From Alphaproteobacteria bacterium (lineage in GTDB: Bacteria; Pseudomonadota; Alphaproteobacteria; Geminicoccales; Geminicoccaceae), in assembly GCA_027045875.1 (NCBI GenBank), contig JALUAG010000008.1:1-64000 (forward strand): 64,000 nucleotides of DNA, in the 5' to 3' direction. A program made the translations under genes and the position numbers. Of the stretch, positions 56,243 through 58,532 are shown piece after piece (within the stretch, counting starts at the first letter, position 1; every line of letters begins with the position of its first letter). Under the pieces are notes generated by a model. The model was not told the DNA's origin. It saw only the letters and a program-made list of their open reading frames with translations, and did no database searches.

Positions 56243-56872
56243 TCAACGGGTGCCGTAGATCCGGTCGCCGGCGTCGCCCAGCCCGGGCAGGATGTAGCCG
56301 TGGTCGTTGAGTCCGCGGTCGACGGCGGCGGTGAAGATGGGCACGTCGGGGTGCTCCTCGTGGAAATGGGCCACCCCCTCGGGGGCCGCCAGCAGACAGG
56401 CGAAGCGTACATCGCCGGCGCCGTCCCGCTTGAGGCGGGCGATCGCGGCGGCGGCCGAATTGCCGGTCGCCAGCATGGGATCGACCACGATCACCGGGCG
56501 CTCGGCGATGTCCTGCGGCACCTTGTAGTAGTACTCCACCGCCTGCAGGGTGGCGGGATCGCGGTAGATGCCGACATGGCCGACGCGGGCGCTCGGTAGG
56601 AGATCCAGCATGCCGTCGAGCAGGCCGTTGCCGGCACGCAGGATGGTGACGATGCACAGCTTCTTGCCGGCCAGCACCCGCGCCTCGGTTTCCATCAGCG
56701 GGGTCTCCACCGACACCGTGGTGAGCGGCAGGTCGCGGGTGATCTCGTAGCCCAGCAGCATGGCCACCTCCCGCACCAGCCGCCGGAACTCGGCGGTGGG
56801 GGTCTCCTTGCGCCGCATGAGGGTCAGCTTGTGCTGCACGAGCGGATGATCGACGATGGTAACCGAAGGCAT
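56243..56872 (-). CDS. upp: Uracil phosphoribosyltransferase
   Basis: A 209-residue type I phosphoribosyltransferase. The PRPP-binding loop is [13 protein letters not shown], the N-terminal [12 protein letters not shown] is diagnostic of Upp, and the C-terminal [21 protein letters not shown] binds uracil. It salvages uracil to UMP. ATG 56872 is well supported by conservation. It is divergent from the trpF-like relic, with 98 bp between the starts. Confidence 0.96.
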
Positions 56873-56970: not shown

Positions 56971-57316
56971 TTGCGCGCGCGCGTGAAGATCTGCTGCATC
57001 CGATCCCGCGAGGAGGCCGCCCGCCGCGGCAGCGATGCCCTGCTGCTCGACAGTGGCCGCCCGGCCGGGGATCCGCCGCGGCTCGGTGGGACAGGCCTCA
57101 CCCACGACTGGCGGGTCGCCCGCCGCATCCGCGAGCGGGTGGCGCTGCCGCTGTTCCTCGCCGGCGGTCTCGGGGCGCAAAACGTGGCGGCGGCGATCGC
57201 CGCGGTGCGCCCCTTCGCGGTCGACGTCTGCACCGGTCTCCGGCGGGGACGGCGGGCTGGACAAGCGCCGTCTTTGCGCCTTTCTGGCAGCGGTCGGCGC
57301 CGCCGCGTCGGCCTGA
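56971..57316 (+). pseudogene. Decayed phosphoribosylanthranilate isomerase-like gene (trpF-like)
   Basis: The first frame starts at TTG 56971 after a GAGGGAGGAAC site with RVKICCI and REEA, the opening of a TrpF-like barrel. It jumps directly to DALLLDSGRP, GGTGLTHDW, LFLAGGL and AAIAAVRPFAVDVCTG, which are late TrpF motifs, so about 100 central residues are missing. After DVCTG the homology continues only in the next frame as DGGLDKRRLCAFLAAV, ending at TGA 57316. An internal deletion plus a frameshift make this a non-functional relic. It lies 28 bp ahead of the threonine synthase-like gene. Confidence 0.75.
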
Positions 57317-57344: not shown

Positions 57345-58532
57345 ATGACCGCGACGCCGGCCGGCCCGGAGGTCCCGACCTTCGTCAGCCATCTCGAATG
57401 CAGCGCCACCGGCGAGACCTTCCCGCCCGACCGGCTCCACAATCTCTCGCCGGCCGGCAAGCCGCTTCTGGTGCGCTACGATCTCGAGGCCCTGCGGCGT
57501 CATTTCTCCCGGGAGACCCTCGCCGGCCGGCCGATGGATCTGTGGCGCTACCGCGAGCTTCTTCCGGTGCGCCGCCGCGAGAACATCGTCGCCCTCGGCG
57601 AGCTGGTGACCCCCCTCCTGCGCCTCCCGCGCCTCGAGGCGGAGCTCGGCAGCCAGGCGCCGTTGCTGGTCAAGGACGAGGCCCGTCTGCCCACCGGCTC
57701 CTTCAAGGCCCGCGGCCTCGCCCTCGCCGTGTCGATGGCCAAGGAACTCGGCGTCACCCACATGGCGATGCCCACCAACGGCAACGCCGGCGCCGCCCTT
57801 TCCGCCTACTGCGCCCGCGCCGGCATTGGCGCCACCGTCTGGTGTCCGGCCGACACGCCGGAGATCAACATCGCCGAGATGCGCCTCCAGGGTGCCGAGG
57901 TGCATCGCGTCGACGGGCTGATCGACGACTGCGGCCGGCTGGCGGCCGCCGCCTGCGCCGAGCACGGCTGGTTCGACACCTCCACCCTCAAGGAGCCCTA
58001 CCGCATCGAGGGCAAGAAGACGATGGGCATCGAGCTCGCCGAGCAACTGGGCTGGCGCCTGCCGGACCTCGTCTTCTACCCGACGGGGGGCGGCACCGGC
58101 CTGATCGGCATGTGGAAGGCCTTCGCCGAACTCGAGGCGATCGGCCTCATCGGCCCGAAACGGCCGCGCATGATCGCCGTCCAGGCGGCGGGCTGCGCAC
58201 CCATCGTCCGCGCCTTCGAAGAGGGGGCCGAGGAGGCGCCGCGCTGGGAGAACGCGCACACGGTGGCGGCGGGCATCCGCGTGCCACGGGCGATCGGCGA
58301 CTTCCTGATCCTGCGGGCGGTGCGGGAAAGTGGCGGCTTCGCCATCGCGGTCGAGGACGAGGCGATCCTACGGGCGCGCGAGGAGGCCGCCCACAGCGAG
58401 GGGCTGCTGCTCTGTCCCGAGGGTGCCGCCACCCTCGCCGCCTACCGGCAGGCGCTCGCGGAGGGACGCATCCGCCGCGATCAGTCGGCGGTCCTCTTCA
58501 ACTGCGCGAGCGGGCTCAAATACCTGCCGTGA
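57345..58532 (+). CDS. Threonine synthase-like PLP enzyme
   Basis: A 395-residue fold-type II PLP enzyme. An N-terminal ribbon (FVSHLECSATGETFP) as in TS-2 threonine synthases is followed by PTGSFKARG with PLP lysine K121, TNGNAGAA and the phosphate-binding TGGGTGLIG. It probably converts O-phosphohomoserine to threonine. Threonine dehydratase or another fold-II enzyme is possible, but the N-terminal ribbon favours threonine synthase. ATG 57345 follows GGGGGAG. Confidence 0.8.
   Translation: MTATPAGPEVPTFVSHLECSATGETFPPDRLHNLSPAGKPLLVRYDLEALRRHFSRETLAGRPMDLWRYRELLPVRRRENIVALGELVTPLLRLPRLEAELGSQAPLLVKDEARLPTGSFKARGLALAVSMAKELGVTHMAMPTNGNAGAALSAYCARAGIGATVWCPADTPEINIAEMRLQGAEVHRVDGLIDDCGRLAAAACAEHGWFDTSTLKEPYRIEGKKTMGIELAEQLGWRLPDLVFYPTGGGTGLIGMWKAFAELEAIGLIGPKRPRMIAVQAAGCAPIVRAFEEGAEEAPRWENAHTVAAGIRVPRAIGDFLILRAVRESGGFAIAVEDEAILRAREEAAHSEGLLLCPEGAATLAAYRQALAEGRIRRDQSAVLFNCASGLKYLP

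Follow-up and report, generated by a model that had tools for sequence, protein, structure and literature searches.

The window analysed here, 64,000 nucleotides in length, is taken from contig C8 of a draft genome (G000; 3.53 Mb, 110 contigs, completeness 99.93%, contamination 2.29%), and contains the broken remains of a gene of the phosphoribosylanthranilate isomerase (PRAI) superfamily in the 472-base spacer between a uracil phosphoribosyltransferase gene (upp) and a gene for a threonine-synthase-like PLP enzyme (thrC2). Both flanking genes, which a preliminary description of this DNA had taken to be intact, appear full length against their reference profiles (Table 1). The gene thrC2 is itself a second copy, since another thrC elsewhere in the genome (G000:C11:18890-19963) scores 260 bits against a TIGR00260 cut-off of 167.1.

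Table 1. Features of the upp-thrC2 interval, in window coordinates.
Feature	Position	Strand	Evidence
upp, uracil phosphoribosyltransferase, intact, divergent neighbour	56246..56872	-	PF14681, E 1.3e-77, positions 2-206/206
Shine-Dalgarno-like site, GAGGGAGGA, preceding the relic's start codon	56956..56964	+	read directly
Open reading frame containing the relic, TTG start, 125 aa	56971-57348	+	read directly
TrpF2 N-terminal fragment, comprising strand 1 and the beginning of helix 1 (VKICCI..REEA)	56971..57021	+	profile 2-17, 12.6 bits
Deletion junction, 3 codons replacing about 109 TrpF2 positions (profile 18-126)	57022..57030	+	TrpF2 profile
TrpF2 C-terminal barrel fragment, strands 6-8	57031..57249	+	profile 127-199, 105.9 bits
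TrpF2 C-terminal tail in another frame, SGGDGGLDKRRLCAFLAAVGAAASA and stop (DGGLDKRRLCAFLAAV)	57239..57316	+	direct reading, shuffles
thrC2, second threonine-synthase-like PLP enzyme, intact	57345..58532	+	PRK08197, E 1.2e-192, positions 3-384/406

The open reading frame begins with VKICCI and continues with DALLLDSG...LGGTGLTHDW...LFLAGGL...AVDVCTG, a 17-codon N-terminal piece being joined in frame to a 73-codon C-terminal piece, while the final ~20 codons sit in a different frame, the change falling within a G-rich stretch. The deletion is itself in frame: 109 of the 216 positions of the TrpF2 profile (see below) are replaced by three residues, a net loss of about 106 codons. The preliminary description, which had read N- and C-terminal parts joined with about 100 central residues missing and a last part out of frame, was thus accurate on both points. 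Chance resemblance was assessed using dinucleotide shuffles of the spacer; neither the main score nor, with an N-terminal profile, the N-terminal score was reached in any of 2000 shuffles, and the score of the C-terminal tail was reached in one of 2000. Direct repeats within the relic were also examined, and no clear deletion mechanism emerged from them.

The relic matches the PRAI family PF00697 over profile positions 111-175 of 193 (E 4.2e-9, 36.8 bits against a gathering cut-off of 22.7), and an origin within the PRAI superfamily is accordingly well founded. The locus had been called trpF-like with the suggestion that an intact trpF be sought elsewhere in the genome, and such a gene is indeed present on another contig (G000:C72:94977-95588; Pfam E 5.6e-42, 144.4 bits), and at 269.3 bits it exceeds one of the NCBIfam cut-offs for TrpF, set at 216. 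A PALP-type gene close to it (G000:C72:93751-94725) may be trpB. Of the earlier designation, then, membership of the PRAI family stands and identity with trpF itself does not, given this intact copy and a better fit of the relic to a divergent second PRAI paralog ('VKICCI...'), which we label TrpF2.

Our TrpF2 profile was built from 82 intact proteins, comprising 76 of the 80 best-matching loci and six loci from genomes of the same family or class; it omits four loci (L122, L126, L149, L160) in which a stop was read directly within the matched stretch, and which may represent either broken copies or gaps in the match. On this profile a 73-residue stretch of the relic gives 105.9 bits, against 65.3 for the full length of the window genome's canonical TrpF, to which TrpF2 is about 30% identical. 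The two intact TrpF2 proteins scanned against NCBIfam (L031 and L032) fall under every TrpF cut-off, with best scores of 119.5 and 110.0 bits against 215. The relic itself reaches 62.5 bits against that same 215, a whole-protein cut-off that would be out of reach after such truncation, whichever of the two genes the relic came from. From its conserved columns and its position beside upp and thrC2, the relic is best assigned to TrpF2 rather than to trpF itself.

TrpF2 is patchily distributed among the 31 genomes of the window's family, with intact copies (E below 1e-60, no stops) in seven of them (G004, G005, G006, G021, G043, G045 and G046), all of which also carry a canonical TrpF match. The upp gene was detected in 24 of the 31 at E 1e-50 or better, and at four of these 24 loci (G006, G043, G045, G046), all in related genera, an intact TrpF2 gene directly adjoins it in the same divergent arrangement as in the window. 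In G021 the two genes lie ~1.3 kb apart, the intervening DNA containing an open frame of at most 408 codons, and thrC2 adjoins trpF2, the two overlapping by four bases at stop and start. Another 16 of the 24 upp loci gave no TrpF2 signal with the whole profile, a scan that remnants of the size described below would escape. The PRK08197-type thrC2 was found in six of the 31 genomes at 1e-60 or better, and in G004 it is unlinked to TrpF2. The copy beside upp in G046 (L178; G046:C26:261229-261867) scores 214 bits, against 360-371 for the other intact copies in the family, and its sequence may be diverging or decaying. Among the best 80 loci, upp lies near TrpF2 in two, that of G021 and that of Chthonobacter albigriseus (Hyphomicrobiales; L112:4348-5654), where upp and trpF2 share a strand and are separated by 17 bases; the adjacency of the two genes therefore occurs in two layouts in Alphaproteobacteria, same-strand in C. 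albigriseus and divergent in the window's family.

Two other genomes of the window's genus, G001 (90% complete, 660 contigs) and G002 (100% complete, 40 contigs), allow the sister-genome comparison that the preliminary description had proposed. In both the neighbouring genes are intact and the gene body is missing from the same place, the upp-thrC2 spacers measuring ~251 bases in G001 and ~222 in G002 (the latter length, and the thrC2 start, being approximate by about one codon), against 472 in the window, and each spacer lying inside a single contig. Only smaller terminal remnants, with endpoints that differ, remain between the genes. In G001 the start region (VRTRVEIRCIQCAEEA), with a GTG start preceded by sequence similar to the window's Shine-Dalgarno-like site, runs directly, with a change of frame, into the final ~18 codons (DGARLSAFVRAVGAAVPT and stop), and in G002 a C-terminal piece (GLDKRRLSAFLAAV) survives. 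The left edge of the deletion (after EEAA) is common to G000 and G001, whereas the right edge differs. Pairwise, the thrC2 DNA of the three genomes is 84-86% identical, making them roughly equidistant, and no intact TrpF2 was found elsewhere in any of the three.

These remnants were found by reading and with a C-terminal profile, and are not significant in the whole-profile scan of upp loci (E 14 in G001, E 3.7 in G002). With the C-terminal profile, none of 2000 shuffles reaches the score of the C-terminal remnant in either genome; in G002, the corresponding numbers are 41 of 2000 with the whole profile (for the C-terminal piece) and 761 of 2000 with the N-terminal profile. The N-terminal remnant of G001 is only moderately significant: of 2000 shuffles, 8 reach its score when the whole profile is used and 1471 do so when the short N-terminal one is used; given the latter result, its identification depends mainly on position and DNA alignment.

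We modelled the intact TrpF2 of G021 (L092) from a 24-sequence alignment, obtaining a (beta/alpha)8 barrel of high predicted quality (mean pLDDT 91.5, pTM 0.90) with strands at 4-8, 26-30, 57-62, 81-84, 104-110, 129-133, 167-170 and 189-192. Mapped onto this model, the window's deletion (18-126) spans four of the eight strands (2-5), and the final helix (204-218) is lost through the frame change. Two residues, the VKIC cysteine and the LLD aspartate, which we take to be the catalytic pair of PRAI, are invariant in the alignments of eight and of 24 sequences. The predicted fold and these aligned positions are consistent with PRA isomerase activity in intact TrpF2, and the invariant Cys and Asp make an Amadori-type isomerase a natural guess. 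The relic lacks the complete barrel of a functional TrpF, with profile positions 18-126 missing and the last helix out of frame; with half of the barrel gone, enzyme function would be expected to be abolished, and a protein of strands 1, 6, 7 and 8 alone would be incapable of forming a barrel.

What remains of the gene in the window is nevertheless well kept. The relic retains all 24 of the invariant columns that it covers and 35 of the 38 columns conserved at ≥90%, columns at which the 82 intact TrpF2 proteins differ at 0.61 positions on average and at four at most. Its GC content by codon position is 0.784/0.602/0.909, compared with 0.724/0.516/0.922 in thrC2, and the third-position value resembles that of real genes. 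As both the conserved columns and the codon-position pattern are preserved, decay in the window species appears young at the level of substitutions. This state fits recent loss, and also fits a short protein that was under selection until lately.

Taken together, the disabling lesions (a deletion and a frame change) and the smaller remnants in both other genomes of the genus make it very probable that the relic is a TrpF2 pseudogene, the gene having once stood between upp and thrC2 and having been inactivated and then trimmed within the window's genus. Under this explanation, the ancestral locus would have carried an intact TrpF2, a second and divergent PRAI-like barrel gene, between upp and thrC2, which would then have been inactivated and progressively trimmed by deletions within the genus. 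In the species of the window, a deletion that keeps the frame has taken part of helix 1 and strands 2-5 with their helices, four of the eight strands, and a frame change the last helix; in the two sister genomes nearly the whole gene has gone. The relic would yield no functional product, and the loss of TrpF2 would probably have been tolerated because the gene is accessory.

Among the alternatives, the least improbable is that an intact gene was mis-assembled or mis-sequenced, which we nonetheless regard as very unlikely. The genome is a draft of 110 contigs. The frame change falls within a G-rich run, so that this single change, by itself, could be a sequencing or base-calling error; the same explanation hardly extends to the deletion, since at this site the gene body is also missing from G001 and G002, each with endpoints of its own, and a search of all three genomes found no further TrpF2. 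Because the sister remnants have other endpoints and no TrpF2 was found elsewhere in those genomes, real staged gene loss is the most likely explanation. Of the two possibilities left standing by the preliminary description, recent gene decay or an assembly error, the first is therefore upheld and the second is very unlikely for the deletion. Slightly less probable again is a minimised but functional protein, a short partial-barrel peptide that is still made and used: the reading frame is preserved through the deletion, the invariant columns are retained, as is the GC pattern across codon positions, and a start codon and a ribosome-binding-like site remain. Such a peptide would lack half of the barrel's eight strands as well as its final helix, and it has no counterpart in the relatives, neither sister genome keeping the short protein.

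A derivation from canonical trpF, with the relic left behind after trpF moved elsewhere, shares with our interpretation an identical Pfam family, and we give it almost no credence. The relic's 105.9 bits over 73 residues on the TrpF2 profile compare with 36.8 on PF00697, and TrpF2 and canonical TrpF coexist in every one of the seven family genomes with an intact TrpF2, in four of which it lies beside upp and in one near it.

TrpF2 is widespread, at least 552 of 596 pattern matches encoding a relative, and the best 80 of these at least 552 are drawn from many phyla. From these 80 loci we picked 16 carriers, mostly isolates or complete genomes, and 15 of them have a second and clearly stronger PRAI match, the exception being L146, a planctomycete in which one match was obtained. 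Among 35 plasmid records with any match, three have a near-full-length copy (80% or more of the query), each annotated as phosphoribosylanthranilate isomerase; the two of these that we viewed both lie among unrelated genes. Several records of large Sinorhizobium medicae plasmids (e.g. NC_009620.1:475852-476244) show a TrpF-like match to the C-terminal part alone (query 94-221), mostly without a gene in PLSDB's incomplete gene table, and this partial match is possibly another relic.

To look for hints of TrpF2 function in its surroundings, the 698 heuristic open reading frames of the best 80 loci were clustered, and no neighbour recurred convincingly; the frames came from a crude picker that placed TrpF2 in its own cluster in 58 of the 80 loci and lost the rest to overlapping shadow frames. 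By eye, the clusters with at least five loci comprise shadow frames (19 and 6 loci), response-regulator-like proteins (6 loci) and KdpD-like proteins (5 loci). A literature search, conducted mostly outside subscription journals, turned up among the papers listed no apparent description of the TrpF2 paralog group or of its loss. We tentatively entertain the possibility that TrpF2 is a widespread, patchily distributed PRAI-fold isomerase acting on a phosphoribosyl-type substrate other than phosphoribosylanthranilate, perhaps linked to uracil or PRPP metabolism in view of the upp neighbour in several Alphaproteobacteria, and that it is being lost in the window's genus.

The TrpF2 relic is real and biologically ordinary, the pseudogene of an accessory trpF paralog, and its chief value is as a pointer to the TrpF2 paralog group. 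A match to the TrpF family does not always mean trpF, and fragments of this family can reflect the loss of an accessory gene instead of tryptophan auxotrophy.

Among solved structures, the modelled intact TrpF2 is matched best by the PRAI of T. maritima (1nsj; Foldseek E 3.9e-15, TM 0.81/0.88), and intact TrpF2 also aligns in sequence with the T. maritima PRAI 1lbm (8.1e-17). Compared with PRAI as represented by PF00697, TrpF2 keeps the aligned Cys and Asp and differs in its low identity to canonical TrpF, and the copy in the window is disrupted; the genome's canonical trpF belongs to the same Pfam family as the relic, but is intact and lies on another contig. Bacterial accessory genes become pseudogenes through deletion and frameshift, and the relic is alike in this respect, showing staged shortening between intact neighbours with endpoints that differ among sister genomes, and nothing unusual.
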